From the NCBI RefSeq assembly GCF_019139535.1, contig NZ_CP077073.1, positions 2,570,501 through 2,634,500 on the forward strand: a DNA stretch of 64,000 bases, given 5' to 3'. Position 1 is the first letter of the stretch, and each line of letters begins with the position of its first letter. Positions 36,536 through 52,360 of this stretch are shown piece after piece. A model generated the notes under the pieces. The model was given only the letters and a program-made list of their open reading frames with translations. It was not told the origin of the DNA and ran no database searches. The stretch comes from Pseudomonas muyukensis. GTDB taxonomy: Bacteria; Pseudomonadota; Gammaproteobacteria; Pseudomonadales; Pseudomonadaceae. The position numbers and the translations under genes were made by a program.

Positions 36536-36922
36536 ATGATTCGCTGCAAACGTGTCTACGAGGCCATCGAGGATCAGGACGGCCAGCGCGTGCTGGTCGA
36601 CCGCTTGTGGCCGCGCAACAAGCGCAAGACCGACCTGCACGGCCAATGGCTGCGCGAGGTGGCGCCGTCCGATGAGCTGCGCAAGGCCTTGCATGCCGGC
36701 GCGCTGGACTTTGCCGGTTTCACTCGGCGTTACCAGCAGGAGCTGGCCGCCCATCCCGAACATTGGTACCCCTTGCTGGATTTGGCCGGCAAAGGCGACC
36801 TGACCTTGCTCTACGCTGGCAAGGACACTGTCCACAACAATGCCCAGGTGCTGGCCGAGTGGCTGGAGGCCGAGCTGGACCGCCGAGGGCCGGGGAGTTC
36901 CCCGGTCTGTTATGGCCAATGA
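36536..36922 (+). CDS. DUF488 family protein
   Basis: 128 residues from the ATG at 36536 (MIRCKRVYEAIED). The family pattern VLVDRLWPRNKRK and LREVAPSDELRK near 20-50 and LLYAGKDTVHNNAQVLAEWLE near the end is clear. Soluble; function unknown. The adjacent GNAT gene begins within about 25 bases and is probably cotranscribed. Confidence 0.85.
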   Translation: MIRCKRVYEAIEDQDGQRVLVDRLWPRNKRKTDLHGQWLREVAPSDELRKALHAGALDFAGFTRRYQQELAAHPEHWYPLLDLAGKGDLTLLYAGKDTVHNNAQVLAEWLEAELDRRGPGSSPVCYGQ

Positions 36923-36947
36923 GCGGCGTGCCCAGCCTTGGAGCATC

Positions 36948-37382
36948 ATGCCCCTGCAACTGACCCCGGCCAATGACAGCCACCGCACATTCGCCCGCGA
37001 CCTGACCCGCCGCGCGATGCTGGCGTACTACCGTGAATTCGACTTGCTGTGGATCGAGGAGGCTTTCGACCAGGCCTGGGGCTGGCGCGAGCAGTGGCTG
37101 GTGGAGGAGGACGGCGAGGTCCTGGGTTTTTGCAGCCTCAGCCAGGACCGCCAGGCGCTGTTCATCCGCGAGCTGCACCTGTTGCCCGAGCATCGCGGAC
37201 GGGGGGTGGGCAGCTGGGTGCTGGAGACGCTCGCCGGCTGGGCAGTGCAGCGTCGCTTGCCGCTGCTGCGGCTGATGGTGTTCAGCAGCAACCCGGCGCG
37301 GCAGCTTTACCTGCGCCATGGTTTCGTGGAAATGGGCGCGGATGCGTGTTTTGTCCGCATGCAGCGCGCGGTTGCAGGGTAG
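36948..37382 (+). CDS. GNAT family N-acetyltransferase
   Basis: 144 residues from the ATG at 36948, preferred because GGAG lies 4 bases upstream; an alternative ATG at 36912 overlaps the DUF488 gene. The GNAT core is RELHLLPEHRGRGVGSWVLETL (RGxGVG acetyl-CoA loop) followed by LMVFSSNPARQLYLRHGFVEMG. The acceptor is unknown. It is the last plus-strand gene before the convergent polysaccharide operon; the 41 bases between hold no signal. Confidence 0.85.
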   Translation: MPLQLTPANDSHRTFARDLTRRAMLAYYREFDLLWIEEAFDQAWGWREQWLVEEDGEVLGFCSLSQDRQALFIRELHLLPEHRGRGVGSWVLETLAGWAVQRRLPLLRLMVFSSNPARQLYLRHGFVEMGADACFVRMQRAVAG

Positions 37383-37423
37383 GCCTACCGTGAAAGGCCA
37401 AGCCCGCACCCACACGTTTCAGG

Positions 37424-38857
37424 CTATTGCTGGCGCACCCGCGCCATCCGCCCCTGCGCCACCGTCGCCTCCAGCACCTGCCCCTGCACCGGCAACAGAT
37501 CACCGATCAGCAGGTTCTGCAGCAGCGCCTTGCCAGCGAAGGTGTTGCCGCCCAGCCACACCTCGTCCACCCCTTCGACCCGCACCAGGGCCTTGCCCAC
37601 CTGGCCCAGGCGATTGCCGCTGACCAGCAGCGGCCCAGGTTGGCGCGTGCTGTTGCGCAGGCTCAGGGCATATTCGGGGGTATTGCCGATGCGGTTATCC
37701 ACCAGGGCCATGCCGGTCACCTCGGCGGCATCTATCGCGCTGCCCTGGCTGCTGGCCAGTAGATTGGCGTCGATCAGCAAGGGGGCTGCCGCGCTGGGGG
37801 CCAGGTTGCGCAACTGGATGCCGTTGCCACGGCTGTCGCCGATCCGGTTGCCGGCCAGCAGCACCGCGCCGCGCTGGTCGCTGATCTCGATGGCGGCCTT
37901 GGCCGCGCCGAGGATCAGGTTGCCCTCGAGCAAGGCGCGGGTCTGGCCGCGCAGGCGCACCCCGCTGTTGTTGTCGATGCCGCGCAACTGGTTGTCGCGC
38001 AGGCTCAGCTGGCTGTCACGGGCGTCGATGGCGTACTGCTGGGACTGCTCGAAGCGGCTGGCGCTGATGAGCGCCTGGCTGTGCTGCAACTCCACCGCGC
38101 TGGACAGTTCGCTGAACTGGCTGGCGTCCACCCGCAACGTGGCCGGGCGGGTGCTGGCGGGTTGCTGGGTGCTGAGCGCGGTCGTCAGGCCGCGGGACAG
38201 GTTGGCGTTGTAGCCCAGGCGCAGCAGGCGTGCGTCGATCAGTTGGGTGTGGCTGCCAGCCCAGGCCACCACGAACGGTCGCCAGGCCCGCTGGGTGGCG
38301 CCGGGCAGGTCGCCGCGCTTGCTGGTCAAGGTTGCGCGCTGCACGCCCAGCCAGCCCTGATTGATCAGCGCGGTGCCGGAGAAGCTGTAGAGGTAGAGGT
38401 GGGTGTCCTCGATCAGCAACCCGGCGTCGGCACCGATCAGCAACGGATAGCTGAGCAGGTAGCCGTCCTTGTAGCGCTTGAGGATGCGCGGGTCGTGCAG
38501 GGCGTCATGCAACTGCGCCAGGGTGATGCTGCCGCCACGCAGCACCACGGCCTGCGGGTGGTGCGCCTGGTAACCGGCGATGGCTCGGAACAGGCCGTTG
38601 TTGACGAAGGGCTCGAACGGCCAACTGCCGGCCTGGGCCGAGAACATCGGCTGCAGGCTGATGCTGGCGCGGCCGGTGGGTTGCGCGCGCGTGACCGGCG
38701 CCAGGGCCACTGCGGCGCGGGCCTGCTGGCGCAGCTGGGCGATGTATTGCTGGTGCTGGGCCGGGTCGATGGGCTCGACGCTGGGGCTGGCTTGCGCGGT
38801 GCCGGCCAGCAGCAGGGCGGCCAGGCAGGTGAGGGCGAAGCGGCTGAGCGGTGCCAT
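37424..38857 (-). CDS. algG: AlgG-like mannuronan epimerase homologue with altered active site
   Basis: 477 residues from the ATG at 38857 (signal peptide MAPLSRFALTCLAALLLAGT), shorter than the ~530 of classical AlgG. A right-handed parallel beta-helix is visible as repeated NxL/I turns from about residue 240 on. Segments parallel AlgG: GYLLSYPLLIGADAGLLIED, WRPFVVAWAGSHTQLIDARL. At the catalytic site AlgG has YGIDPHD; here residues 275-281 read YAIDARD, so the catalytic histidine is arginine. The aromatic stretch before it (WYGFYCYE in AlgG, from memory) is SSAVELQH. It probably does not epimerise but may still shield the polymer in the periplasm, a role known for AlgG. Last gene of the operon. 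Confidence 0.75.
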   Translation of the reverse strand: MAPLSRFALTCLAALLLAGTAQASPSVEPIDPAQHQQYIAQLRQQARAAVALAPVTRAQPTGRASISLQPMFSAQAGSWPFEPFVNNGLFRAIAGYQAHHPQAVVLRGGSITLAQLHDALHDPRILKRYKDGYLLSYPLLIGADAGLLIEDTHLYLYSFSGTALINQGWLGVQRATLTSKRGDLPGATQRAWRPFVVAWAGSHTQLIDARLLRLGYNANLSRGLTTALSTQQPASTRPATLRVDASQFSELSSAVELQHSQALISASRFEQSQQYAIDARDSQLSLRDNQLRGIDNNSGVRLRGQTRALLEGNLILGAAKAAIEISDQRGAVLLAGNRIGDSRGNGIQLRNLAPSAAAPLLIDANLLASSQGSAIDAAEVTGMALVDNRIGNTPEYALSLRNSTRQPGPLLVSGNRLGQVGKALVRVEGVDEVWLGGNTFAGKALLQNLLIGDLLPVQGQVLEATVAQGRMARVRQQ

Positions 38858-38871
38858 GGGGGCATCCTTGT

Positions 38872-40032
38872 TCAAGGCAGGTGGGGGTAGGCCGGCTTCA
38901 ATGGGCCGCCAACCTGGCTGTAGTTGTCGACCTCGCCCTGTTCGCTGTCGTACAGCTGGCGGGCCAGGCGGTGCTGGGGCTGGCGGGCAAGAAACGGGAT
39001 CAGCCAGGCCAGCTTGTAGGGGGCGACAGTGGCCTGGCTCCGGCCCTTGAGCTCGGCCAGGGTGTCCGGTTCGAGCACACTGCGGGCGGCGAAGCTGGCC
39101 AGTTGCTCGAGGGTGCGCTGGTCGGCCTCGGTCCAGGCCAGGCCGTTGGCCCGGGCCGATTCGCTGAGCAGCACCAGCGGCACCAGGGCGTACTGGCTGT
39201 AGTTGGCGGCCAGCTTGCCGCGCGCCACTTCCAAGGGCAGGTAGGCATAGTCGTCGTGGCGCACGGCCTGGGCCAGGCCGCGGCGCAGGTTGCCATCGGC
39301 CCACTGGATGAAGTCGTCGCGGCCCACCAGCATGCCGGCGGCGGCCACGGCCCAGGCGGCCCAGTAGTCGTGGTTGTTGAAATACACCGTGCTGGCGTGG
39401 CGGCGTGGCGCGTACTCGGCAATGACCTGTTCGCCCAGGCGGGTGAACCAGCGCTGCTGCGCCGGGCTGAGCGGGCGCTTGCCATCGGCCGCCGCCTGGG
39501 TCAGCAGCACCGCGCCGGCCATGGCCGCCAGCGCCCATTTGCGCGCGGCCATGCCGCTGGCCGAGGCGTCGGGGTCGAGCAGGGCATCGGCTTGCGCCCA
39601 GCGTTCCAGCCACTGGTCCTGGCAGGCCAGGGCCAGGTTGGCCTCCTGGGGTTTTTTCGCCCGCTGGAAACGCTTGCCGGCGTAGATCAGGCCGCCGATG
39701 TATTGCTTGACCTGCTTGGCGATGCGTTCGCTGTCGGCGTCGCGGCTGGCGCGCAGGGTCGACTTGCTGGCGTCGCGCTGGTCGTACTTGCTTTGCAGGC
39801 GCAGGCTGCCGGTGTAGGGCGCGGGTGCTGCTTTGTTGCAGGCAAGGCTGCGGTAGTCGTCGATCATTGCCGATTGCGCGGTGGCGCGGGGCGGCCAGAT
39901 CGACTGGGCGGCGTGGGCCTGGGGCGTGAGCGGCGCCAGGGCGAGGGTCAGCAGCCAGGGGGCCGCCCTGCGGCCCATCGCCGCCAAGCCCGCTCCTGCA
40001 GGGATAGCAGCGGCTACGCTCAGGGGCTTCAC
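38872..40032 (-). CDS. algL: Alginate lyase (AlgL-like, PL5)
   Basis: 386 residues if started at the GTG at 40032, which overlaps the algX stop as GTGA; alternatives are ATG at 40038 or 39978. Periplasmic (beta/elimination) lyase that clears stray polymannuronate. Residues matching the AlgL active site are SKY (K82), the NNHDYWAAWAV segment (N220, H221), R271 and Y281 in ANYSQYALVPL. The N-terminal region is unusual: residues 11-25 are encoded by a REP element, ahead of a normal signal peptide core (PWLLTLALAPLTPQAHA). 14 bases before algG. Confidence 0.8.
   Translation of the reverse strand: MKPLSVAAAIPAGAGLAAMGRRAAPWLLTLALAPLTPQAHAAQSIWPPRATAQSAMIDDYRSLACNKAAPAPYTGSLRLQSKYDQRDASKSTLRASRDADSERIAKQVKQYIGGLIYAGKRFQRAKKPQEANLALACQDQWLERWAQADALLDPDASASGMAARKWALAAMAGAVLLTQAAADGKRPLSPAQQRWFTRLGEQVIAEYAPRRHASTVYFNNHDYWAAWAVAAAGMLVGRDDFIQWADGNLRRGLAQAVRHDDYAYLPLEVARGKLAANYSQYALVPLVLLSESARANGLAWTEADQRTLEQLASFAARSVLEPDTLAELKGRSQATVAPYKLAWLIPFLARQPQHRLARQLYDSEQGEVDNYSQVGGPLKPAYPHLP
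39957..40002 (-). repeat. REP element inside the algL 5' end
   Basis: The minus strand carries CCTGCAGGAGCGGGCTTG.. followed by GCGATGGGCCGCAGGGCGGC, a typical P. putida REP unit. It lies in frame within the start of algL. Confidence 0.75.
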
Positions 40033-41426
40033 AGGCATAGCCGCGTCTGCACTTCGGTGGCCGCGGTGCCGGCCTTGGTCGGCTCGAGGAACACCGACAG
40101 CAGGTTGGCCCCGGCGAACTCGGGCGCCGTGCTCAGCTCCAGGTAATACTGGCCGCCGCTTACCGCCGCTTCGCGGCGAAACCACACCTTGTCACGGGCT
40201 CCGTTGTCGTAATAGACGATGATGTAGAAGTCGCGCACGTTCTTGTCGCTCAGGCGGATATCGAGAAAGCCCGCGTGCAGCGACTGCCGGGCGCTGCCGG
40301 CATTGCTCAGCAGTTCGATGCGCTCGCCCACCTTCAGTGCCGGGTGTTGCAGCCTGGACCCCAACACCTCGCGCGACGCCTTGCAGCCGCCCTGGATCGC
40401 CGGCACCAGTTGCCGGTACATCAACGGCGAGTCCAGCCGGTAGTTGGCCGGCAGCTCCCAGATCAGCAGCTTGGGCGGCGCCTCGGGCTTGTAGTCGGCC
40501 GACAGCAGGTACTCCAGCAGCGAGCCGTCCTCGCCGACCCCGGGCAGGGCATAGTTGAGGATGTCCACGCCCAGGTACTGCTTGAGGTAACCGTCGAAAT
40601 TGAACTGCTTGCTCTCGTCCTCCCGGGCCGCGGCGTTACTGTCGCCGACCAGGATCACCTCGGGGTCGGGTGCCTCGTCGAACAGCGCCTCGCTGCTGTC
40701 GGCCACCGGAATGGTCTGGTAGCCGCGTACATACTGGAAACCGTAGTTGTTGCCGCAGATATAGCTCAGCGCCAGGTTCAGGGTGCCGTCCTTGGGCACC
40801 ATCACCCCCGGCTCGGTGCGGTACTGCTTCTTGCTCAGCCCGGCGTAGAACGGCTGGCGGCGGACTTCCTCGGCCAGCAACTGCGCCGTGGCCTCGGCGC
40901 CGGTGGGGGTCCAGTGGTGGTCGCGGCGGAAGAAATACTCGCCCTTGGGCGGCGTGCGCACCAGTTGCATCATTGGCGCGACCAGCGCGCCACCCTGGCG
41001 CAGCTGGCCCAGGTAGGCGTCGAAGTTGCGGCTGGCACTGGCATGGTCGAAGCCATGCAGCTGGTCGGGGTAGAGCTTGTCGCGATGCATCAGCCCGCGG
41101 GTCGGCTGGATGGCCATGGCCACCTGGATGCCCTGGCGGTGGAAGGCGGCCATCAGGCGGGCGAACTCGGGGCGCATGGGCGCGGGGATACCGAAGTCGT
41201 TGGTCAGGTCGACCATCGAGCGGAACAGCCAGCGCTCCTTGCCCGGGACGATCTGGCGCATCAGCTTCATGCGCCCTTCGGCGTAGCGCTGCGGCTCGGC
41301 CAGCGCCGGGCAGACCATGCATTGCAGGTTCGCGCAGGCGCCGCTTGCGGCGGCCTCGGCCGCCTGGGCCGGCAGGCTCGACAGCGCCAGGGCGCTCGCC
41401 AGGCCGAATCGAAGGAGGGGACTCAT
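40029..41426 (-). CDS. algX: AlgX-like alginate O-acetyltransferase
   Basis: 465 residues with signal peptide (MSPLLRFGLASALALSSLPA). SGNH-hydrolase-like domain followed by a C-terminal carbohydrate-binding module, as in AlgX, which transfers acetyl to mannuronate in the periplasm. Catalytic residues are present: RDHHWTP gives D169 and H171, and VGDSN gives nucleophile S263 (AlgX has VGTSNS). The paired-cysteine N-terminus (CANLQCMVCPAL) matches AlgX. In the classical operon algX follows algG; here it lies between algF and algL. Confidence 0.88.
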   Translation of the reverse strand: MSPLLRFGLASALALSSLPAQAAEAAASGACANLQCMVCPALAEPQRYAEGRMKLMRQIVPGKERWLFRSMVDLTNDFGIPAPMRPEFARLMAAFHRQGIQVAMAIQPTRGLMHRDKLYPDQLHGFDHASASRNFDAYLGQLRQGGALVAPMMQLVRTPPKGEYFFRRDHHWTPTGAEATAQLLAEEVRRQPFYAGLSKKQYRTEPGVMVPKDGTLNLALSYICGNNYGFQYVRGYQTIPVADSSEALFDEAPDPEVILVGDSNAAAREDESKQFNFDGYLKQYLGVDILNYALPGVGEDGSLLEYLLSADYKPEAPPKLLIWELPANYRLDSPLMYRQLVPAIQGGCKASREVLGSRLQHPALKVGERIELLSNAGSARQSLHAGFLDIRLSDKNVRDFYIIVYYDNGARDKVWFRREAAVSGGQYYLELSTAPEFAGANLLSVFLEPTKAGTAATEVQTRLCL

Positions 41427-41433
41427 GGGCGGC

Positions 41434-42063
41434 TCACTCGGTCGGGTCGATGCTGTTGGGCAGGCTCAGGCTGCGGTTGCCCGGCAGCAGCACGTAGCTG
41501 TAGGAACGGCCCTTCTTGAGGAACAACTCGTCGAAGCTGGCCACCTCCTGGTTGCCGACGTAAGCGGCGAAGTCGATCTTGATCTCGTTGACCATGCGCG
41601 CGCCGGTCTGGCCGTTGGCCAGGGCCTTGACCACCTCGTGCTTGCCATCGGCGGTGCGCAGCGTGGCCTGGGCGGGGGTGAGGTTGTAGAAGGCGACCTG
41701 GGCCTTTTTCGGCTCATTGACGTACTGGTCGGCGATCAGCCGCAACTGCTGGCCGTCGTAGACCACGGTGCTGGCGGCGTTGGCTGCCAGGTTCGGTTCG
41801 ATGGCCTTGGCGCCGATGCCGATACGGTGCGTGCCGGCGGGGACGAAGCGGTAGCCGCTGAGCTGGCCTGGGGCGACCTTCTGCGGGTTGAGCTTGCCGC
41901 TGAGGCTGACGTCGACGCTGGCCGCGGACAGGTTGAGCACGCGCACGAATGCCGAGTCGGCCGGGGCCACGGCGTCGTACAGGTCGGCGTTGCCGTCGGC
42001 GGCCGCGGCGGTATGGCTGGCGACGGCCAGGGCGAGGGCGGCGAACAGGGGCGAGATTTTCAT
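41434..42063 (-). CDS. algF: AlgF-like alginate O-acetylation protein
   Basis: 209 residues from the ATG at 42063 (signal peptide ending SHTAAAADG). Two beta-rich domains; required for O-acetylation with AlgI and AlgJ, acting as a periplasmic adaptor without known catalytic motif. Recognised from the start DLYDAVAPADSAFVRVLNLS and the end YSYVLLPGNRSLSLPNSID. The longer ORF start at 42135 lies in the algJ end and is rejected. 19 bases after algJ, 7 before algX. Confidence 0.85.
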   Translation of the reverse strand: MKISPLFAALALAVASHTAAAADGNADLYDAVAPADSAFVRVLNLSAASVDVSLSGKLNPQKVAPGQLSGYRFVPAGTHRIGIGAKAIEPNLAANAASTVVYDGQQLRLIADQYVNEPKKAQVAFYNLTPAQATLRTADGKHEVVKALANGQTGARMVNEIKIDFAAYVGNQEVASFDELFLKKGRSYSYVLLPGNRSLSLPNSIDPTE

Positions 42064-42082
42064 CGGGTTTCTCCTTGAAACG

Positions 42083-43177
42083 TCAGAAATGCGCGGGCTG
42101 GGTAGGGCCTGCGAGGGTGCCGGGACGGTGGGCAAGCAGGGTGCGTAGCGGGAACTCCCAGATCACGGTGTCTATCTGCGGGTTGCGCGACTGCTCGCTG
42201 GCGAGGAACTGCTGCATCGCCTCGAACGGCCCACGGGCTTCGACGGCGATGCTCAGCAGGTCGCGGTTGAGCGCTTCCTTGAGGAAGCCGACGAAGTTCC
42301 AGTCGTCGATCTTGCTGTAGCTGGTGCCCACCAGCAGCAGGCTCTGACGCTGCTCGGCGAACAGGTCGTCGCTGCTTTGCGCGGCCTTGAGGGTTTCGTA
42401 CAGCTCGATGGTGCTGGCGCCGAATTGCGGGGCGAGGCGGGCATGGTCGAATTGCAGGTAGTTCATCAGGTCGCCCTTGACCTGCTTGGTGCCGGCCGGG
42501 CGCGACACGTACACCTGATCACCCAGCAACTGCGGGCGCTGGCGCGCCAGCTCGTAGGCCGACAGGCGCGCGCCGTCCGGGCTCCAGTGGGTATCGGACT
42601 TGAGGAACAGGCGCGGGCCGGCCAGGTTGCGCAGGTACGCCTCGCGCAGCGGCACCACATCCAGCTGGCGGGCCCGCAGGTCGGCGACGAAGCGGTCATA
42701 GAGGCTCTGCACCCGTGGGTCGAAGGCGCGTGCGGCGTGGGCGGCGTAGACATCCAGCTTCATCGGCAACGGCAGCAGCAGCAGATGCTTGCCGCGCGCG
42801 GCCAGTTGCCGTTCGATGTCGGCGATCTGCGCCAGCTGGCTGTCGAGGTTGGCGTCCAGGTCGTTGGGCACGCGGTATTCCTGGTTGCTGTAGAGCCAAC
42901 CCTCGTTGCCCAGCACCACGCCCTGGGTGCCCTCGCCGAACAGCTGGAACTGCGCATCGGCCCACAGCGTGACCGAGGGTTCGCGCAGGAAGAACCGCTT
43001 GTCGTAGGCCTGCTCGAACCTGCGCAGCAGCTTGCCGTCGACGAACAGGTGCCAGGCGTCGCTCTGGGTGCGGGCGAAGCTGAACACCGGCGGCAGCGAG
43101 TAGACGAACATCGCTGCTAGCACCAGGGCGAAGATCACACCATTGGCCTTGCTGGCCGAATTCATCACCGGATACAC
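42083..43177 (-). CDS. algJ: AlgJ-like alginate O-acetyltransferase
   Basis: 364 residues from a GTG at 43177 with GGAG 6 bases upstream (an ATG four codons later lacks a ribosome site). Single N-terminal membrane anchor (VIFALVLAAMFVYSLPP), then a periplasmic SGNH-like domain. The catalytic set is intact: LKSDTHWSP (D195, H197) and VGTSYS (S286). Acts with the MBOAT protein AlgI to move acetyl groups to the polymer. Classical AlgJ is about 390 residues. Confidence 0.9.
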   Translation of the reverse strand: MYPVMNSASKANGVIFALVLAAMFVYSLPPVFSFARTQSDAWHLFVDGKLLRRFEQAYDKRFFLREPSVTLWADAQFQLFGEGTQGVVLGNEGWLYSNQEYRVPNDLDANLDSQLAQIADIERQLAARGKHLLLLPLPMKLDVYAAHAARAFDPRVQSLYDRFVADLRARQLDVVPLREAYLRNLAGPRLFLKSDTHWSPDGARLSAYELARQRPQLLGDQVYVSRPAGTKQVKGDLMNYLQFDHARLAPQFGASTIELYETLKAAQSSDDLFAEQRQSLLLVGTSYSKIDDWNFVGFLKEALNRDLLSIAVEARGPFEAMQQFLASEQSRNPQIDTVIWEFPLRTLLAHRPGTLAGPTQPAHF

Positions 43178-43186
43178 GGTGTTCTC

Positions 43187-44614
43187 CTAGAACTGGAAAT
43201 ACAGGAACGGCGAGAACGAACTGGCCGCCAGGCTGCTCAGGGCCAGCAGGAAGCCACCCCACAGCAGCAGGCTGTGCAGCACGCCCACGTGACGCATGAA
43301 GTAGCCCTGCTGGTTGCCGGCGTAGAAGCGCACGTTGTTGAGCCCGGCCAGCAGCAGCCAGGCGACTGCCACCAGGGCGAAGGCCATGGCCATCTTCGAG
43401 GCGCCGAGCACGTACAGCTCCAGCGAGCCGAGGCCGTTGAAGCCGAACAGCGCCTGGTAGATGGCCAGGCTGTGGCGCAGGTCCATGGTGAAGAACAGCG
43501 GCATGCTGAGGATGACCAGCAGCGCGGTGCGCAGGTTGCGCCCCAGGTGGTAGGGGGTGTTGACCTTGGTGGCCAGGCCGAACTTGCGCTCCAGCACCAT
43601 GCCCAGGCCGAAGAACAGCCCCCAGCAGATGAAGGCGAAGCTTGCGCCGTGCCACAGGCCCGACAGCAGCATGGTCCAGACCAGCGCCGGCAGGGCGCCG
43701 GCCACGCGCTTGCGCACCAGCGGCATGTACACGTAGTCGCGCAGGAAGTGCGCCAGGGTCATGTGCCAGCGCGACCAGAACTCGGTGATGCTCTGCGACA
43801 CATAGGGCTGGTTGAAGTTTTCCGGGAAGCGAAAGCCCATCATCAGTGCCAGGCCCAGCGCCATGTGGCTGTAGCCGGCGAAGTCGAAGTACAGCTGCAG
43901 GGTCGAGACCAGCAGGCCGAACCAGGCATCGCTGAACTGCAAGCTGCCCTCGCCGATGAACAGCAGGTTGATCGGCGCCAGGCGGTCGGCGATCAGCACC
44001 TTCATGATGAACCCGAGCATGAAGCGACAGGCGCCCAGGGAGAACAGCTCCAGCGAGTGGCTGCGCTGGCGCAGCTGCGGCGCCAGCTGGCTGTAGCGCA
44101 GGATCGGCCCGGCCACCAGGTGCGGGAACAGCGCGACGAAGGCGGCGAAGTCGATGAAGCTGCGGGTGGGCGTGGCGTCCTTGCGGTAGATGTCGACGAT
44201 GTAGCTCAGCGCATGGAACACGTAGAACGAGATACCCAGCGGCAGGAAGATGGTCTCCAGGGTCCAGGTGTTGATGCCCAGCGGCGCCAGCAGCACGGCC
44301 AGCATCTCGGCGCCGAAGTTGGCGTACTTGAAGTAGCCGAGGGTGGCCAGGTTGCCGGCCACGCCAAGCCACAGCAGGCGTAGGGCCCCGCGCTTGTCGC
44401 CAGCGTCCAGGCGCGCCTTGATGGCCAGGCCGAAGCCGTAGTTCCAGGCGGTGATGGCGACGAACAGCAGCAGGAAGTCCGGCCGCCACCAGGCATAGAA
44501 GATATAGCTGGCAGCGACGATCACCAGCGAGCGCCAGCGTGGCCGGGCCAGGTAGTAGAGGGCCAGGAACAGCGGCAGGTAGAGGAACAGGAACACGTTG
44601 GAGGCGAAGATCAT
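43187..44614 (-). CDS. algI: AlgI-like MBOAT O-acyltransferase
   Basis: 475 residues (classical AlgI 520). Multi-helix membrane protein that passes acetyl groups across the inner membrane. Starts MIFASNVFLFLYLPLFLALY; MBOAT landmarks are LPLGISFYVFHALSYIVDIY, FPHLVAGPILR, the NQPYVSQSITEFWSRWHMTL segment and the catalytic histidine in LLSGLWHGASFAF near residue 315. The end SSFSPFLYFQF matches AlgI. Directly after algE, unlike the classical order. Confidence 0.93.
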   Translation of the reverse strand: MIFASNVFLFLYLPLFLALYYLARPRWRSLVIVAASYIFYAWWRPDFLLLFVAITAWNYGFGLAIKARLDAGDKRGALRLLWLGVAGNLATLGYFKYANFGAEMLAVLLAPLGINTWTLETIFLPLGISFYVFHALSYIVDIYRKDATPTRSFIDFAAFVALFPHLVAGPILRYSQLAPQLRQRSHSLELFSLGACRFMLGFIMKVLIADRLAPINLLFIGEGSLQFSDAWFGLLVSTLQLYFDFAGYSHMALGLALMMGFRFPENFNQPYVSQSITEFWSRWHMTLAHFLRDYVYMPLVRKRVAGALPALVWTMLLSGLWHGASFAFICWGLFFGLGMVLERKFGLATKVNTPYHLGRNLRTALLVILSMPLFFTMDLRHSLAIYQALFGFNGLGSLELYVLGASKMAMAFALVAVAWLLLAGLNNVRFYAGNQQGYFMRHVGVLHSLLLWGGFLLALSSLAASSFSPFLYFQF

Positions 44615-44626
44615 GCTGGGCGGCCC

Positions 44627-46069
44627 TCAATAACTGATCACGATGCCGACGCTCACCTGGTAGTCGTCACCGCTGTTCAGCGCGCTGCCGGCGTTGAGGT
44701 AGCTGGCGCTGACCAGGGTGTTGACGTCCAGGCGCTTGCCGTCGAGGGCTACCGGGAACATCTTCCAGTAGTAGTTGAGGTCGATCATCTGGCCGACGTT
44801 GTCGCCCTTGCCCTGGCCGGCGGCCAGCGCGTCCTGGCGGCGCGCGCGGTAGTCGGCGCCCATGCGGATCGGCAGGGTACCCTGGGCGTCGCGCAGGTTG
44901 AGCTGGGTGACCCGCAGGTCCAGCGCGCTGCGCGGGGTTGGCTGGGTCTGCAGGGCCAGGCCGTAGTAGCTCAGGTTGCGCAGGTCGAGGGCCACGAACG
45001 AACTGGTCAGGCGCGTGCTGTACGAGCCCTGGCGGGTGATGCGGTCGGACTGGATCGGGTTGAGCCGGAAGCCATCGTTGTCGTCGCCGGGCTTGTCGGT
45101 CAGGCCGCCGCGCAGGGCGAGGCGCGGCGTCCACGGCAGGGTGTCGAAGCGCTTGCCGACCTCGCCGAGGGCCGCCCAGCCACGGCTGGAATGGCCGGTG
45201 CTGGTGACGCCGTTGCCGGCAGTGTTGTCCATCGTGCCGTCGAGCGCCGCCAGTTCCAGGTGATAGTCGCTGTCCAGCGGCAGGTGCTCGCCCTTGAAGA
45301 ACAGGCCGTAGCGCCAGCCCTTGAAGTCGTAGCGATCGTCGCTGTCGTGGTCGCTGCGGTCGTTCTCGTGCATCAGGCGCACGCCGACCTGGTTGTTGCT
45401 GCTCCAGCGGTAGGCGTACTGGCCCATCAGGTAGAGGGTGCGCGCTTCGCTGGCCGGCAGCGAATTGACGTCGGTGTTGTAGTTGTGGAATTTCTGGCCG
45501 ACGGCAATGAACGCGTCGCTGAAGCTGTCCTGGTAGTTGAAACGCAGCGATTCCAGGCTGTCGTCCCACCAGATGCCGTAGTCGTCGTTGAAGCGCTGGC
45601 GGCCGAACGACAGCGAGAAGCGTGGGTCGTCGCCGATCAGGTTGCGCTTGACGTACAGCTCGCGCAGCTCGGCATACCAGCCTTCGGCTTGTTCGCGGGC
45701 ATTCTGGTTGGTCGCTTCGTTGCTCAGGTTGCTCGACTGGCTGGAGTCGTAGTTCAGCCACAGGCGGCCATAGACCATCCACTTGGCCCAGCGTTTTTCC
45801 GGCGCGTACCAGGCGAACGACGGCTCATAACGCAGGCTGTAGAAGCTTTCGCGGTTGCGACCGACCTGCGAGTCCGCAGGGCCGTAGCCGCCCTGCACGG
45901 TGAGCTTGTTGAACAGCTCCGAGGTGATCACTGGCTCGCCACCGTCGCCGGGCAGGCGCATCGGGGCCTGGCTGTCGGCCTCGGGGCCGGTGACTTCCTC
46001 CAGTGCCAGTGCCGCCGGCAGTGGCGCCAGGGCGAGCAGGGCGCCGAGCAGGGGATGGTGCGCTTTCAC
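44627..46069 (-). CDS. algE: AlgE-like outer-membrane polysaccharide porin
   Basis: 480 residues, signal peptide (LLALAPLPAALA). 18-stranded barrel type: VGRNRESFYSLRYEPSFAWY, LRELYVKRNLIGDDPRFSLS, FGRQRFNDDYGIWWDDSLES, then alternating strands to the terminal QVSVGIVISY. Exports the anionic polymer. Start overlaps the algK stop (ATGA). Slightly shorter than classical AlgE (490). Confidence 0.9.
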   Translation of the reverse strand: MKAHHPLLGALLALAPLPAALALEEVTGPEADSQAPMRLPGDGGEPVITSELFNKLTVQGGYGPADSQVGRNRESFYSLRYEPSFAWYAPEKRWAKWMVYGRLWLNYDSSQSSNLSNEATNQNAREQAEGWYAELRELYVKRNLIGDDPRFSLSFGRQRFNDDYGIWWDDSLESLRFNYQDSFSDAFIAVGQKFHNYNTDVNSLPASEARTLYLMGQYAYRWSSNNQVGVRLMHENDRSDHDSDDRYDFKGWRYGLFFKGEHLPLDSDYHLELAALDGTMDNTAGNGVTSTGHSSRGWAALGEVGKRFDTLPWTPRLALRGGLTDKPGDDNDGFRLNPIQSDRITRQGSYSTRLTSSFVALDLRNLSYYGLALQTQPTPRSALDLRVTQLNLRDAQGTLPIRMGADYRARRQDALAAGQGKGDNVGQMIDLNYYWKMFPVALDGKRLDVNTLVSASYLNAGSALNSGDDYQVSVGIVISY

Positions 46070-47514
46070 AGGGAGGCCTCCTTCAACAGATCGCCGCGCG
46101 CGGCCAGGGCGCGCTCGATGTCATCCTTGGGCAGGGTCTTGTCCAGCCGTTTGAGCAGGCCGCGGGCGCGGGTTTCGCCCAGGTCCAGGGCGATGCGGGC
46201 ATAGGTGTAGGCCTTGACCGGGTCGTGGCAGATCGCCCGGCCGCGCAGGTGCACGGTGGCCATGCGGTACCAGGCCGCGGTCGAGCCTTGCTCGGCCTGC
46301 TGCTGCCAGATACCCAGGGCGCGCGCCTGGTCGGGCTGGTCGAGGCCGCCCTTGCTGTACAGGTCGCCCAGCAGCAACTGGGCGTCGGGGTAGTGGGCCG
46401 CGATCAGTTCGTCGATCAGCCCCTGGGCCTTCTCCGGGTCCAGGGTCAGCCAGTTGTTGACCATGTAGAACGACGCCTCCAGCGCCTTGGCCCGGATCGG
46501 TTCCTTGGCCCGTACCTGGGCGATCAGCGCCTGGGTCTGCTCGGCGTTGTGCTCGGTGGGGTTGGAGATCATGAAGTTGGCCTTGGACACCAGTGCCGGC
46601 AGGTAGCCCCGGGCCACGGCATGGTCCAGCCAACGCTGGGCCTCGGCGATGCCGTCGGCGCGCAGCTTGTCGTTGGCCTGGTCGCGGGCCTGTTGCTCAG
46701 GCGTCGGCGCGACCTTGGGGCCCATGGCCTGGGCCAGGCGCTGCTCGCGCTCGGCGTCCAGTTCGGCGCGGGTGACGCTGTGGATGTTGTCCACCAGCGC
46801 GCCGATGCGTTGCACGATCTCCACCGACAGGCTGGCCATTTCCGGTTCCAGGCGCCGGGCGAAGGCGAGGAACGCGCTGTCCTGCTGCGCGCCGAGGAAG
46901 CGGTAGTAGCGGTCGACCGCCCGTGGGTCGATGCGCGCGGCCTGCTGGTACCAGCGTTCGGCCGCGCCGCGCTCGCCCTGGCGCTCGGCGAGCACGGCGT
47001 GGTACAGCGCGGGGCGGCAGTTGAGCAGGCAGCTGCGCTCATACAGCGCCAGCAGTTCGGCGGCGCGCTCGCCAGAGAACAGATGCGGGTAGACCAGGAA
47101 CACCTCCAGGCTGGTGCTGGTGCTGCGCGGGTCGAGGTCGTTGGGGTAACGGCCCAGCGCCTGGCGCACCCAGGCCTGGTGGCGGCGTTGCAGGTTCGGC
47201 GTGCGATCGAGCAGGCGTGCCAGCGCAGCCAGGGCCGGGACCTGCCCATGGCCGTCGGCGAAGGCTTGCTGGTACAGGCGGATGATCGCTGGCCGGCTGG
47301 CGCTGTCACTGGCGGCCAGCACATCGCCGAGCAACTGCTTGGCGGCCAGGTCGCCACGGTCGGCGAGCACGCGCAGGTCGGCGCTGACGTTGGCGCTGGG
47401 GTCCTTGTACAGGGCGTAGCGCACCTGCTCCAGGCTCAGCCCGGCGCAGGCGTTGCCGGCCCAGGCCAGGCCCAGGCCGGCCAGCAGCAGACGCGGGGCG
47501 TTCTTGGCGTTCAT
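46066..47514 (-). CDS. algK: AlgK-like TPR/Sel1 scaffold protein
   Basis: 482 residues of helical TPR/Sel1-like repeats (e.g. AAELLALYERSCLLNCRPAL, DAQLLLGDLYSKGGLDQPDQ, TAAWYRMATVHLRGRAICHD). AlgK bridges the inner-membrane synthase and the AlgE pore and is normally a lipoprotein. Here the signal end is WAGNACAGLS: residues before the cysteine (GNA) do not fit a lipobox, whereas ACA-G fits signal peptidase I. It may therefore be a soluble periplasmic protein. 9 bases after alg44. Confidence 0.85.
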   Translation of the reverse strand: MNAKNAPRLLLAGLGLAWAGNACAGLSLEQVRYALYKDPSANVSADLRVLADRGDLAAKQLLGDVLAASDSASRPAIIRLYQQAFADGHGQVPALAALARLLDRTPNLQRRHQAWVRQALGRYPNDLDPRSTSTSLEVFLVYPHLFSGERAAELLALYERSCLLNCRPALYHAVLAERQGERGAAERWYQQAARIDPRAVDRYYRFLGAQQDSAFLAFARRLEPEMASLSVEIVQRIGALVDNIHSVTRAELDAEREQRLAQAMGPKVAPTPEQQARDQANDKLRADGIAEAQRWLDHAVARGYLPALVSKANFMISNPTEHNAEQTQALIAQVRAKEPIRAKALEASFYMVNNWLTLDPEKAQGLIDELIAAHYPDAQLLLGDLYSKGGLDQPDQARALGIWQQQAEQGSTAAWYRMATVHLRGRAICHDPVKAYTYARIALDLGETRARGLLKRLDKTLPKDDIERALAARGDLLKEASL

Positions 47515-47523
47515 GGCCGGCCC

Positions 47524-48687
47524 TCAGTTGCCGCTGCCGAACGGCAGGCCCAGGTACAGGTCGACGGCCACCGCCTTCTGGTAGGCCGCCGCCGGCAGGG
47601 GCTGGTCCGGGGCAATGGTCAGGGCCAGGTTGCGGTTCAGCTCATCGGAGCGGGCGTCCACCACCTTGCCGCTGAAGTGCTGGTCCAGGCCGAACACCTG
47701 CAGGTCCACCGAGCGCACGCGGTCGATATCGGCGAGCTTGTCGAACGGCACGTTGGCACGCACGAACAGGCCCTGGTCCTTGGGCAGCAGGTGCATCAGC
47801 GGCGCGCCCTTGTAGCCGAAACCATCGAGGGCTGGCGCTGGGTAGTAGACCTGGCAATCGCATGGGCTGTTGATCACCGTCTCGACCGTGGCGCGCCCGA
47901 GCAGCGCCTGCACATCGCTGGGGGCCAGGTCGGCCAGGGCCTTGATGTCCGCCGGGGTGGTGAGCTGGGTGGCCAGCTGGGTGGAGACGCTCGCCAGCGG
48001 CTGGCCGGCCTGTACCTCGGTGGCGCCGGCGGGCAGCAGGTATTTCACGTAGCCGTTGTCCGGCATGCTGATCACCTGGGCGTTGGTCGCCACGGTGGCC
48101 TGCAGCGCCGGGATGCGGAAGAACAGCAGGTAGCCCTTGTAGCCGACGAAGCCTAGCGCGGCGAGGCCCGCGGCGGTGTAGAGCGCGGTACCGGCCAGGG
48201 CCTTGAAGCGCTCGCCCGGGGTGCGCGCGTGGGCCTGCTTGTGCTTGCGCTCCTTGATGTAGTTCTCGCGCTGCATCACGTTGAACAGGCCGTTGATATC
48301 GGCGATCTCGCCAGACAGGTAGGCGCTGATCAGGTAGCGCAGGATGTCGCGCTTCTGCGCGTCGAGGTCGACGAACTGGGCACCGACCTCCTGGCCGCGC
48401 TGGGAGACGATGCGCACCTTGGCGTCGATCGACAGGTCGACCTGGTTCAGGCGCAGCTGGATCGAGGCGTCGTACAGCGCGCCGATGGTCAGCGGCGCGC
48501 CGTGCAGCAGGCCGATGCCGCCCAGCGAGATATCCTGCAGGTCGGCCGCGAACGGCTCGCGGCCGTTGCCGGACAGACTTACCCGGGCGTTCATCCGGGT
48601 GCGCACGTACTGCCGCTCGTCGATGGCTTCGTGGACGATGTTGGCCGCCGTCTTGCCCGGGGCCGATGGGGTGTTCGAAGTACTCAT
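47524..48687 (-). CDS. alg44: Alg44-like c-di-GMP receptor and synthase partner
   Basis: 387 residues. N-terminal cytosolic PilZ domain with the c-di-GMP motifs RQYVR (R25, R29) and DISLGG (D52, S54, G57); one membrane helix near 165-190 (ALYTAAGLAALGFVGYKGYL); periplasmic membrane-fusion-like part with NGYVKYLLPAGATEVQAGQPLASV and the SPCDCQV cysteines also present in Alg44. It should gate polymerisation by c-di-GMP. 15 bases after alg8. Confidence 0.92.
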   Translation of the reverse strand: MSTSNTPSAPGKTAANIVHEAIDERQYVRTRMNARVSLSGNGREPFAADLQDISLGGIGLLHGAPLTIGALYDASIQLRLNQVDLSIDAKVRIVSQRGQEVGAQFVDLDAQKRDILRYLISAYLSGEIADINGLFNVMQRENYIKERKHKQAHARTPGERFKALAGTALYTAAGLAALGFVGYKGYLLFFRIPALQATVATNAQVISMPDNGYVKYLLPAGATEVQAGQPLASVSTQLATQLTTPADIKALADLAPSDVQALLGRATVETVINSPCDCQVYYPAPALDGFGYKGAPLMHLLPKDQGLFVRANVPFDKLADIDRVRSVDLQVFGLDQHFSGKVVDARSDELNRNLALTIAPDQPLPAAAYQKAVAVDLYLGLPFGSGN

Positions 48688-48702
48688 GGCAGGCGCCTTT
48701 CC

Positions 48703-50235
48703 TTAACGTTGCGTGAGTTCCAGCAGGACGGTGATGACCCCGAAGAAGATCGCGATCGACGCGCACAGCATCGCCTTCGAGGACCAGCGGTTCAGGCGCG
48801 CGTCGAAGTCGACGCTGCCGTTGGCCAGGGTGGTCTGCTGGCGCGTCCAGCGTTGCTGGTCCATGTGGAACAGCGCGTAGACCTTCATCAGCGAGCCGAC
48901 GATCTGGTTGTAATAGAGAACGAACGGGTACATCGGGCTGACCGGGTGCCCGGCGAAGACGAACAGCACCGTCACCAGGCTGCGCGAGACCAGCACCCAG
49001 AACAGGTACACCAGCAGGTACTGGATGCCGAACACCAGGCCGGCCACCAGCGAGGCGGTCAGGCCCATCAGGCAGGTCCACATCGACACCCGCTGGTCGA
49101 GCAGCACGTACAGGGTGAACAAGCCCAGGCGGGCGCGGCCGAGCAGGGCGGTGGCGCGAAAGTTCTGCCGCAGCGAGTTGCCGTACCAGCGGAACATCAG
49201 CTGGCGGGTGGCCACCCAGAAGCTGTCGCTGGGGGGATGCTCCACGGTCAGGGTGTGGCTGTCGGGCACGTAGAAGGTGTCCCAGCCAGCGCGCATCAGG
49301 CTCAGCCAGCTCGACTTGTCGTCGCCGGTGAGGAACTGGAAGCGGCCCAGGCGCCAGTGCTCGAGAAAGTCCGCCTCGACATCGCGGATGAAGGCCGGGT
49401 CGGTCATCACCCCGGCACGGAAGAACGACAACCGCCCGGTGAGGGTCAGCACCCGGTGCGACAGGGCCATCGAGCACATGTTGATGTGCCGCTGGACGAA
49501 GCGCATCGAGTGCCACTGACGCATCCAGCGGCTGCCCTCGACTTCACAGAACTCGTTGGTGGTCAGGCCGCCGACCCTGGGCAGCACGGCGAACAGCTTG
49601 ACCGCGCGCTCGACGCAGCCGGGCAGCATCATGGTGTCGCCGTCGACCACGCCGACCACCGCGTCGTCCAGCGGCATCTGCCGCGACAGCGCGCGGAAGG
49701 CGTGGGCCAGGCCATCGCGCTTGCCGGTGCCGCGGGCGCGGACGATCACCAGGTCGATGTCGTCGCGCTCGCGCACTTCGTTGCGCAGGATGTCCTTGAT
49801 GAACTGCTCGTCGCCTTTCTCGACGATCGAGGCGATCACCGTGCACGGCACCTTCAGCCGCTGCACCTCCTGGAACACCGACTGGTAGACCTTGAAGGTG
49901 GTGTGGGTGGGGATGCGGAAGCTGGTCACCACCATGAACAGGTGCGCCGGCAGCGCCGCGTCGCCCAGGCGTTCGACCTGGCGGCGCAGGCGCGGGAAAC
50001 GCCAGTGCAGGAAGTACATGCCGCGCAGGTAGTGGACGATGGCATTGCCATAGCGCCACAGGCCCAGGGTGCCGATGATGAAGATGAACAGGTGGTGGTT
50101 GGGGTCCAGGTACTGTGGCGCGACCATCTGCGAGGCCAGCGCGATCAGCCCGGCGAGCAGCGCCCAGGCGCAGAAGCGGGCGGCCGCGCGCAGGTGGGCC
50201 GGGGCCGCGAAGGGCCGCTGTTGCTGTCGATCCAT
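48703..50235 (-). CDS. alg8: Alg8-like family 2 glycosyltransferase (polymannuronate synthase)
   Basis: 510 residues. Two N-terminal membrane segments, a GT-A cytosolic domain and C-terminal helices. GT2 motifs: DGD at 198-200, TNEFCE at 226-231, GDD at 304-306 and RWYGN (QxxRW-like) after VATRQLMF. Many short blocks are identical to Alg8 (GTGKRDGLA, INMCSMALS, FLTGDDKSSW, WYGN.LRQN) but overall identity looks only moderate. Polymerises GDP-mannuronate with Alg44. Confidence 0.92.
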   Translation of the reverse strand: MDRQQQRPFAAPAHLRAAARFCAWALLAGLIALASQMVAPQYLDPNHHLFIFIIGTLGLWRYGNAIVHYLRGMYFLHWRFPRLRRQVERLGDAALPAHLFMVVTSFRIPTHTTFKVYQSVFQEVQRLKVPCTVIASIVEKGDEQFIKDILRNEVRERDDIDLVIVRARGTGKRDGLAHAFRALSRQMPLDDAVVGVVDGDTMMLPGCVERAVKLFAVLPRVGGLTTNEFCEVEGSRWMRQWHSMRFVQRHINMCSMALSHRVLTLTGRLSFFRAGVMTDPAFIRDVEADFLEHWRLGRFQFLTGDDKSSWLSLMRAGWDTFYVPDSHTLTVEHPPSDSFWVATRQLMFRWYGNSLRQNFRATALLGRARLGLFTLYVLLDQRVSMWTCLMGLTASLVAGLVFGIQYLLVYLFWVLVSRSLVTVLFVFAGHPVSPMYPFVLYYNQIVGSLMKVYALFHMDQQRWTRQQTTLANGSVDFDARLNRWSSKAMLCASIAIFFGVITVLLELTQR

Positions 50236-50261
50236 GGCGCTGTAGCTCCTGTTGTCGGGTA

Positions 50262-50281
50262 CCCGCCACGGCCGTGGCGGG
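50262..50281 (-). other. Perfect hairpin between algD and alg8
   Basis: CCCGCCACGG/CCGTGGCGGG is a perfect 20-base palindrome in the 58-base gap, just after the algD stop and before alg8. No T-run, so rather a processing or stability element that could set algD above downstream genes. Confidence 0.6.
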
Positions 50282-50293
50282 GGGCGGCGTGGT

Positions 50294-51601
50294 TTACCAG
50301 CAGATGCCCTGGTGACGGGTGTCGCTGGTGCCGTTCATGAACCCGACCAGGTCGACCACCTGCTTGCCGCTGCCGGCATCCAGGGCGCGGGCGAAGCGCT
50401 CGTCGTTGTTGCCCAGCACGATCACCTCGGCGTCGTCGATCACCTGTTGCAGGTCGCTGCGCAGCAGCGCGCTGACGTGGGGAATCTGCTGTTCGATGTA
50501 CTGGCGGTTGGCGCCATGGCGGCGGGCGTGCTCGACGTTGGCGTCGTAGATGCGCAGCTCGTAGCCCTTGCCGATCAGTTGCTCGGCCAGGGTCAGCAGC
50601 GGGCTTTCGCGCAGGTCGTCGCTGCCGGCCTTGAAGGCCAGGCCGAGCAGGGCGATGCGCCGCTTGCCGGGGCGGGTCACCAGCTCGAAGGCCTGGCGTA
50701 CCTGGTGGCGGTTGCTGTCCATCAGCGAGGCCAGCAGCGGGTGGGCGACATCCAGCTGGCCGGCGCGGTAGGTGAGGGCGCGCACGTCCTTGGGCAGGCA
50801 CGAGCCGCCGAAGGCGAAGCCTGGGCGCAGGTAGTAGCGTGACAGGTTGAGCTTGTGGTCCTGGCAGACCACGTCCATCACCTCGCGGCCATCGACGCCC
50901 GAGGCCTTGGCGATGTTGCCGATTTCGTTGGCGAAGCTGACCTTGGTGGCGTGCCAGACGTTGCAGGTGTACTTGATCAGTTCGGCGACCTCGACCGACT
51001 TGCGGATCACCGGCGCGTCCAGGCCCTGGTACAGCGCCTCGAGCAGGTCGCCCGAGGCGCTGTCGAGTTCGCCGATCACGGTCATGGCCGGGAAGTCGTA
51101 GTCCTGGATCGCGGTGCTTTCGCGCAGGAACTCGGGGTTGACCGCCACGCCGAAGTCGATGCCGGCCTTCTTGCCCGAGGCGCGTTCCAGGGTCGGGATC
51201 ACCAGGTTGTTCAGCGTGCCCGGCAGCACCGTGCTGCGCACCACCACCGTGTGGCGGCTGGCCTTGTCGCGCAGGGCGGCGCCGATCTCGCGGCACGCGG
51301 CCTGCATGTACGTCAGGTCCAGGTCACCGTTGGGCTTGCTCGGCGTGCCGACGCACAGCAGCGACAGTTCGCTGGCCAGGATCGCCGCCTGCACGTCGGT
51401 GGTGCCGCGCAGGCGGCCCTGGCGCACGCCGTCGAGCAGCAGTTGCTCCAGGCCTGGTTCGACGATGGGGGAGCGTCCCTGGTTGATCATGTCGATCTTC
51501 GCCTGGTCGATGTCCACGCCCAGCACCTGGTGCCCCCGTGCCGACAGACACCCGGCGCAGACTGCGCCCACATAGCCAAGTCCGAAGATACTGATGTTCA
51601 T
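50294..51601 (-). CDS. algD: GDP-mannose 6-dehydrogenase (AlgD-like)
   Basis: 435 residues from the ATG at 51601 with GAGAGGGA upstream. Oxidises GDP-mannose to GDP-mannuronate with two NAD+. N-terminal Rossmann motif ISIFGLGYVGAVCAGCLSAR, nucleotide-sugar dehydrogenase core FGVAVNPEFLRESTAIQDYD, the catalytic cysteine in FAFGGSCLPKDVRAL near residue 268, and LLGLAFKAGSDDLRESP. It ends QGICW as in AlgD. Mostly the AlgD pattern, but many substitutions indicate a diverged copy. First gene of the operon. Confidence 0.93.
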   Translation of the reverse strand: MNISIFGLGYVGAVCAGCLSARGHQVLGVDIDQAKIDMINQGRSPIVEPGLEQLLLDGVRQGRLRGTTDVQAAILASELSLLCVGTPSKPNGDLDLTYMQAACREIGAALRDKASRHTVVVRSTVLPGTLNNLVIPTLERASGKKAGIDFGVAVNPEFLRESTAIQDYDFPAMTVIGELDSASGDLLEALYQGLDAPVIRKSVEVAELIKYTCNVWHATKVSFANEIGNIAKASGVDGREVMDVVCQDHKLNLSRYYLRPGFAFGGSCLPKDVRALTYRAGQLDVAHPLLASLMDSNRHQVRQAFELVTRPGKRRIALLGLAFKAGSDDLRESPLLTLAEQLIGKGYELRIYDANVEHARRHGANRQYIEQQIPHVSALLRSDLQQVIDDAEVIVLGNNDERFARALDAGSGKQVVDLVGFMNGTSDTRHQGICW

Positions 51602-51830
51602 AGGTCCCTCTCCCCAGGCGCAGCACAAGGCCGGCCGAGATATGCCGTTCATGGAAGTTGGTTAAGACAGACGCGCAGGATCAAGCCGCGCTTGGATATG
51701 GCGAAGCAGGCTGGTTCTTGGTGGTCTTTTTACATCCTAATGAGGTTTTTCTTAGTTGGGCAAGTGTTGTTTGGTTATTGTTTTAGTTATTTGTTTTTTC
51801 TTGGTTGTTTAGTTTAAAAATCGTTATAAA

Positions 51831-51858
51831 TCAATTAGTTAAAGTTTGTGAAAAGTTC
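51831..51858 (-). promoter_or_regulatory. Candidate AlgU (sigma-22) promoter upstream of algD
   Basis: On the minus strand a perfect GAACTT -35 box (51858-51853) is followed after 17 bases by ATTGA, a partial match to the AlgU -10 (TCNNA). It lies 230 bases before algD in a strongly AT-rich stretch (about 51725-51980) unlike the surrounding sequence, a pattern often bound by MvaT/TurA-type silencers. A weak AlgR-like CTGTTCGTG occurs at about 51880. No gene is seen in 51602-52053. Confidence 0.35.
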
Positions 51859-52053
51859 GACGTCAAAAAAATGATTACCCTGTTCGTGTCGGTATATTGG
51901 CGTCAAAGTCGGGTTGGGTGGCTTGTTCAAGGGGTTGCTGGCTTTTTGCGATTATTCTTTTTTAGCGATGTTTTTAGGGGTTCTATGTGGGCGCTGATTG
52001 CGTAAGTTGTGATGTTGTTGAGGGGGATTCGATCGCGTGAGGGCGGCGAGGGG

Positions 52054-52360
52054 GTTGACGAAAGTCTTGCAGCGCCTGTGAGACCGAGCGCCGCCCGCGC
52101 GGCGCATCGCGGATGAATCCGCTCCTACATTTGTTGCAACGTACCGAACCTGACAGGCCATGGTTGCTAGCCTGGGCGCAGGGCTTGAGACGGGTGGGGC
52201 GGCGGCAGCGCCCACGCAAAAAACGGCTCGAGCGCACAAGGCTGACAACCATGGCCTACCAGGCATGGCCACGTTGCAACAAATGTGGGAGCGGATTCAT
52301 CCGCGATGCGCCGCGCGGGCGGCGCTCGATCTCATAGGCGCTGCACTACTTTCGGCGAAC
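52054..52360. repeat. Large inverted-repeat element (REP-bearing, MITE-like)
   Basis: Two arms of about 125 bases (52054-52178 and 52233-52360) are inverted near-copies of each other. Each contains a REP-like core (GCGGATTCATCCGCGATGCG and its complement) plus non-REP flanks (TTTGTTGCAACGT, GGCCATGGTTG, TGCAGCGCCT). A spacer of about 55 bases has no ORF of note. Confidence 0.75.

Follow-up and report, generated by a model that had tools for sequence, protein, structure and literature searches.

The genome of Pseudomonas muyukensis consists of a single contig of 5.53 Mb, and the window analysed here, a stretch of 64,000 nucleotides of that contig, carries eleven genes of the alginate family in an arrangement unlike that of the alginate operon. 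The locus raises the question of how it is related to that operon, whether it belongs to a kind already described, and which polymer its products would make.

Gene content and surroundings of the locus

All eleven open reading frames (11/11) are free of internal stops and lie on the minus strand between positions 37424 and 51601, in the order D-8-44-K-E-I-J-F-X-L-G. The gaps between them range from -10 to +58 bases, and we therefore read the eleven as one operon, as did the initial annotation, whose coordinates were exact and whose sizes for AlgI, AlgJ and AlgG (475, 364 and 477 residues) were correct. We use the epm gene names of the cluster type to which the locus belongs (see below).

Pfam models back nine of the products (D, 8, 44, E, I, J, F, X and L). 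The first gene, epmD (algD-type; 50294-51601), encodes a predicted GDP-mannose 6-dehydrogenase with the N-terminal, central and C-terminal UDPG_MGDP_dh domains. It is followed by epm8 (alg8-type; 48703-50235), encoding a putative membrane-bound mannuronan synthase that matches the GT2 model, and by epm44 (alg44-type; 47524-48687), whose product is a putative c-di-GMP receptor with a PilZ domain (Pfam PilZ, 2.5e-14; Alg44 PilZ in the PDB, 1.4e-12) and a weak HlyD-like match downstream of that domain. The predicted export proteins are encoded by epmK (algK-type; 46066-47514) and epmE (algE-type; 44627-46069). EpmK is a Sel1/TPR protein that matches the AlgK model weakly (65 bits; cut-off 700) and the AlgK structure (PDB 3e4b) at 6e-9, ranked behind another TPR protein at 6.7e-10, and EpmE is a predicted outer-membrane pore (Pfam Alginate_exp, 2.5e-8; AlgE in the PDB, 1.1e-14, over residues 94-238). 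Acetylation-type proteins are specified by epmI (algI-type; 43187-44614; an MBOAT acyl transfer protein by Pfam MBOAT), epmJ (algJ-type; 42083-43177; an SGNH-like O-acetyltransferase, Pfam ALGX, 3.6e-68), epmF (algF-type; 41434-42063; an acetylation partner, Pfam AlgF, 6.5e-38) and epmX (algX-type; 40029-41426; a terminal O-acetyltransferase with a C-terminal CBM, Pfam ALGX and CBM_26, matching AlgX in the PDB at 8.6e-76). The operon ends with epmL (algL-type; 38872-40038), whose product is a PL5 lyase scoring above the cut-off of the NCBIfam 'polysaccharide lyase' model and matching AlgL in the PDB at 1.9e-37, and epmG (algG-type; 37424-38857), which encodes a beta-helix protein lacking the DPHD epimerase motif and matching AlgG in the PDB (4nk6, 7.8e-7; by profile, 2.1e-26) and, weakly, the AlgG model (40 bits; cut-off 700). 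The K and G products are the most remote family matches in the cluster.

One flank holds PHO4/Pit, DUF488 and GNAT genes; on the other, a GerE-domain response regulator accompanies an HTH protein that scores slightly below the Pfam cut-off. The annotated neighbours were Pit/GNAT genes and gacA; Pfam bears out the former, and on the latter side gacA and uvrC are putative names given by eye. Between epmD and the HTH gene, at 52080-52340, lies a pair of GC-rich stretches, alike but oppositely oriented, that resemble REP elements of P. putida. A simple scan of 36900-37500 for a minus-strand terminator-like site after epmG found none.

The region before epmD on the minus strand (51602-52000) is AT-rich, its 400 bases having a GC content of 43% versus 68% in the cluster, and contains a pair of similar TTGAC-type elements, which precede the epmD start by about 305 and 265 bases. 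Across the 33 loci L065-L097, of which all but L097 had sequence for this region, TTGRCGYCA occurs at -297 to -307 in 26, and 29 have TTGACRYM at -257 to -271. No factor could be assigned to these elements. An AlgU-like GAACTT was considered and set aside, being present in the window and absent from several aligned relatives. Judging from its PilZ motifs, Epm44 may place the system under c-di-GMP control.

Relation to the classical alginate operon and to known epm clusters

A classical alginate operon is present elsewhere in the genome, at approximately 1.636-1.652 Mb of the contig, with the order D-8-44-K-E-G-X-L-I-J-F followed by algA. The window cluster has every functional class of this operon except algA, with common pathway, synthase, PilZ, acetylation, lyase and export parts. 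Features of the classical type found in the window thus include predicted GDP-mannuronate synthesis, an Alg8 synthase, a PilZ Alg44, AlgI/J/F/X acetylation and the AlgL lyase residues, whereas the gene order with algA and an AlgG C5-epimerase with DPHD are missing: in the window G stands last, I-J-F lies ahead of X-L, and the synthase falls into a separate clade. Local identity to the classical proteins of the same genome is 73% for D, 55% for 8, 47% for I, 35% for F, 33% for J and 31% each for 44, X and L; for E (31%, 127 residues), K (27%, 134 residues) and G (25%, 288 residues) it covers only part of the length.

In order to place the synthase, we built a tree of 62 Alg8 rows, 35 of them Epm, using 30 of the 64 named epm loci and dropping 13 close classical rows. 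The 35 Epm rows form one clade (support 100/99) that includes the window and the P. alkylphenolica loci L085 and L086; the classical rows lie outside it and as one group have a support of only 57/17. Could the locus be the ordinary alginate operon in rearranged form, lately duplicated in this lineage? Each of its eleven genes does have a classical counterpart in the same genome, but the Epm Alg8 clade is deep, taking in Pseudomonas and Marinobacterium as well as loci from further families, two of them probably from Alcanivorax, and if the tree is right it leaves a recent duplication next to no chance. The initial annotation had proposed an additional, accessory locus, to be read as an ordinary operon if it were the only alg locus of the genome and lay inside the classical clade. 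As a classical operon exists elsewhere and the synthase groups outside the classical clade, the accessory reading holds: the window locus, anciently related to the classical alginate operon, is retained alongside it.

The locus is also of a kind already described, the 'epm' cluster type. According to an excerpt of PMC5890197, Lee et al. (2014) described in Pseudomonas alkylphenolia an epm cluster that specifies an alginate-like EPS; that paper is cited in an excerpt of PMC8745256 as well, and the literature search on this subject also brought up PMC6271200. Two P. alkylphenolica loci, L085 and L086, carry the same 11 genes in identical order, with gene-by-gene identities of 67-89%; in these two loci we found no difference in make-up from the window cluster beyond the species. 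The idea of an undescribed system therefore falls. The 2014 cluster, from strain KL28 (Appl Microbiol Biotechnol 98:4137), reportedly comprised 11 ORFs, its product is said to be a substituted polymannuronic acid that served as the scaffold of multicellular structures, in which epmJ and epmG were reportedly required, and relatives are said to occur in Pseudomonas, Alcanivorax and Marinobacter.

By scanning named genomes with an EpmE alignment we collected 64 named epm loci, of which 56 have the complete order (counting L095, where epm8 is split across two ORFs); in five more no D adjoins the cluster, and contig ends truncate the other three. In some complete loci D is slightly closer to classical AlgD than to EpmD. 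Two loci probably from Alcanivorax (L150 and L151) and one from Marinobacterium (L127) are consistent with the list of relatives ascribed to the 2014 paper. Our genome samples were drawn from larger groups, and in a genus sample of 199 Pseudomonas genomes, the window genome included, an epm-type G was found in 25 at E <=1.6e-109, the next match below these being at 1.7e-13; 23 of the 25 have a further AlgG-like match. In each of three other Pseudomonas genomes (G027, G046 and G058) there are two Alg8 genes of the classical type, with identities of 75-76% and 79-85% to that of the window genome, which suggests that an alg locus has been duplicated or that a third kind exists. An epm locus with Pseudomonas-like flanks also occurs in L066, whose record title, Pantoea sp. 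Cy-639, is probably wrong. In L149, a second gene resembling PL5 lyases lies on the other strand outside the epm operon (L149:1331-2368).

Gene order bears on the suggestion that the I-J-F block had moved. The observed order D-8-44-K-E-I-J-F-X-L-G is correct, and it is the usual one of the epm type. L148, from another family, reads D-A-8-44-K-E-I-J-F-X-L-G, L149 has the same order with A absent from the stretch covered, and in L150 and L151 epmG and algA lie on the opposite strand at the cluster end, convergent with the rest. Classical-type loci place G after E with a variable order behind it: X-I-J-F-L-A follows G in L153 and X-L-I-J-F-A in L154, and the classical-type locus L152:337-16365, again from another family, reads D-8-44-K-E-G-I-J-F-X-L-A, between the epm and Pseudomonas orders. 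Since I-J-F precedes X-L in L152 too, that feature is not special to epm, as the terminal G is. A move within this operon is thus not borne out, and I-J-F ahead of X-L may be the older arrangement.

The absence of algA from the operon was noted correctly, no AlgA-type (GMP-PMI) gene occurring within the window, but it does not mark the type: of the 59 named loci that have a D gene, 26 carry a GMP-PMI gene between D and 8, and the 33 without one are L065-L097. In 32 of these 33, the window's flank genes are matched on at least one side; L096, from P. costantinii, matches none. Together with the tree, the pattern fits a single putative loss of algA before P. costantinii and the window-like loci split. 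The absence may thus be lineage-specific, algA being common in the epm type and lost in the window's branch, and this point may be new. The genome has three GMP-PMI genes, all outside the window and one of them the classical algA, so the supply of GDP-mannose need not stop. A relocated epmA was considered and rejected: on a quick tree with several long branches the two non-classical genes fall outside the EpmAs of clusters, giving no sign that epmA had merely moved. Five named epm loci (L108, L118, L119, L124 and L125) show neither algD nor algA beside epm8 in the stretch covered, so that their GDP-mannuronate must have another source; in L119 a GMP-PMI gene does lie beyond the opposite end of the locus.

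Motifs lost and kept in the Epm proteins

In EpmG, the window protein has DARD opposite the DPHD of AlgG, a placement made independently by an hhalign profile alignment (99.8%). Our EpmG alignment has 186 rows: 66 from loci (the window, 61 of the 64 named loci and four others, the three cut loci giving none) and 120 from databases (the best 120 of 135 clusters), the two sets overlapping (P0002 is the window protein). DPHD occurs in 0/120 EpmG homologues (the best 120 of 135) and in 0/16 homologues of an Alcanivorax EpmG. In 119 of 120 classical AlgG homologues (the best 120 of 1476) it is present, these controls being close kin of the window genome's AlgG (78-94% identical to it), as it is in 5/5 further classical loci and 4/4 classical alignment rows; the exception among the classical AlgGs listed is P0131, with DLHD. 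The motif histidine is absent from 63 of the 66 locus-derived EpmGs and kept in three (L108, L120 and L122, with DLH[DG]) and in three of the 120 database rows (the best 120 of 135), again overlapping sets; on the EpmG tree, by a quick method, the six rows that bear it need two changes. The proteins with DLH[DG] in these three loci may be active, as may P0131. This clade-wide loss of DPHD is possibly a new point.

In AlgG, proton abstraction is probably the task of the histidine in DPHD, according to part of PMC4444821. The title of Gimmestad et al. (2003) indicates that the AlgG protein is needed for polymer formation and its epimerase activity is not; according to an excerpt of PMC9734138, P. 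aeruginosa AlgG does not pull down AlgK, and its tie to the export complex is unclear. As EpmG keeps the beta-helix and not the motif histidine, it is most likely a non-catalytic part in export or protection that does not epimerise. Some EpmG-type proteins are named 'poly(beta-D-mannuronate) C5 epimerase' in databases, a name that appears doubtful.

Motifs of the other proteins were counted in the window and in the loci of one genus sample. Epm8 keeps DGDT, TGDDK and RWYGN, and Epm44 keeps RxxxR and DxSxG, in 24/24 rows; the WHG histidine of EpmI, DTHW and VG[TS]S of EpmJ, and RDxHW and VG[DT]SN of EpmX are kept in 25/25. These motifs are taken to have the roles that they have in proteins of the Alg8, Alg44 and AlgI/J/X types. 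All 25 EpmX rows also have a 6-residue insertion directly behind the serine motif, which could alter the acyl step. In EpmL, the columns K66, H202, R249 and Y256 are kept in 66/66 rows, and AlgL variants H202A, R249A, R249E and Y256F had no activity in vitro, according to an excerpt of PMC8829089. An apparent loss of the catalytic arginine was discarded because K248/R250 in that excerpt put R249 three residues earlier, where it is kept. The lyase, acetylation, synthase and c-di-GMP activities of the epm products look intact by these motifs.

The predicted polymer and its possible natural producers

Gene content, clade membership and the loss and retention of motifs were computed directly; from them we infer the chemistry of the polymer, the role of EpmG and the regulation. 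We consider it quite probable that, with an EpmG that lacks the motif histidine and does not epimerise, the epm operon of the window makes O-acetylated polymannuronate lacking guluronate. AlgA-type enzymes with genes outside the operon would supply the GDP-mannose that EpmD converts to GDP-mannuronate, and Epm8 with the c-di-GMP receptor Epm44 would polymerise polymannuronate and move it out. EpmI, J, F and X would O-acetylate the chain, EpmK and EpmE would export it, EpmL would clear stray polymer, and EpmG would serve export or protection. The classical AlgG shares this periplasm, however, and could act on the polymer that the Epm proteins make.

EpmG might instead still epimerise by means of another base, for example His259, giving acetylated alginate with some guluronate. 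His259 precedes the motif by 21 residues, a distance that may amount to one turn of the beta-helix, and is present in 46 of the 66 locus rows, the window included; the tyrosine and first aspartate near the motif are nearly fixed, Arg301 stands in 65 of the 66 where four classical rows have Ile, another arginine column holds Arg in 46/66 locus rows and 92/120 database rows (the best 120 of 135), and the motif histidine survives in the three locus rows named above. His259 or Arg301 might each have a part in an altered active site. However, 17 of the 66, Marinobacterium lutimaris among them, have neither histidine, and across the 186 rows the motif-histidine column holds 13 different residues, His included, none of them fixed, so that we regard an active EpmG as unlikely.

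Far less probable still is a product other than polymannuronate, made by a repurposed alginate machine. The high divergence of K, E and G (25-31% over parts) and the insertion beside the EpmX active site would suit such a polymer, but EpmD and classical AlgD share 73% identity, Epm8 retains the Alg8 motifs, EpmL retains the mannuronate-lyase residues, the 26 loci noted above have a GMP-PMI gene between D and 8, and the 2014 study reportedly gives substituted polymannuronic acid. The acetylated cellulose (wss) operon, a system mentioned in part of PMC4444821, offers a further comparison. It has alginate-type acetylation proteins in common with the epm cluster, but its backbone is cellulose, and it is not the window locus.

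Acetylated polymannuronate would be expected most directly where epm stands alone. Classical AlgG was used to search ten genomes, some of which may be incomplete, and four of them gave only a weak, epm-type match: Pseudomonas sp. URMO17WK12:I2 (L102), P. guryensis (L108), P. neustonica (L117) and Marinobacterium lutimaris (L127). The absence of classical AlgG from these genomes is provisional. The EpmG of P. guryensis keeps DLHD, that of P. neustonica has His259, and that of M. lutimaris has neither histidine. PF12708, presumably the Pfam family carried by secreted AlgE-type epimerases, was searched for in six genomes and not found in the window genome or those of L085, L108, L117 and L127; L102 gave one partial match. 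As no other AlgG was found in some epm species, guluronate-free acetylated mannuronan would be expected there, and in strains without a detected classical AlgG the prediction is directly testable.

According to part of a 2015 review, guluronate-free acetylated mannuronan has not been found in nature, and pure mannuronan is described as obtained from AlgG mutants. In a literature search largely confined to open-access papers, none stood out as reporting an organism that naturally makes a guluronate-free polymer, and PMC5851621 makes no mention of alginate. On balance we lean slightly towards epm as a widespread natural polymannuronan system, in which a clade spanning Pseudomonas, Marinobacterium and Alcanivorax has a catalytically dead, export-only AlgG and some species are naturally guluronate-free. 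If this is true, M. lutimaris, the best case, and P. neustonica would naturally make guluronate-free acetylated mannuronan; the epm clade may then be a natural set of AlgG 'mutants', and may separate the role of AlgG in export from its role as an epimerase.
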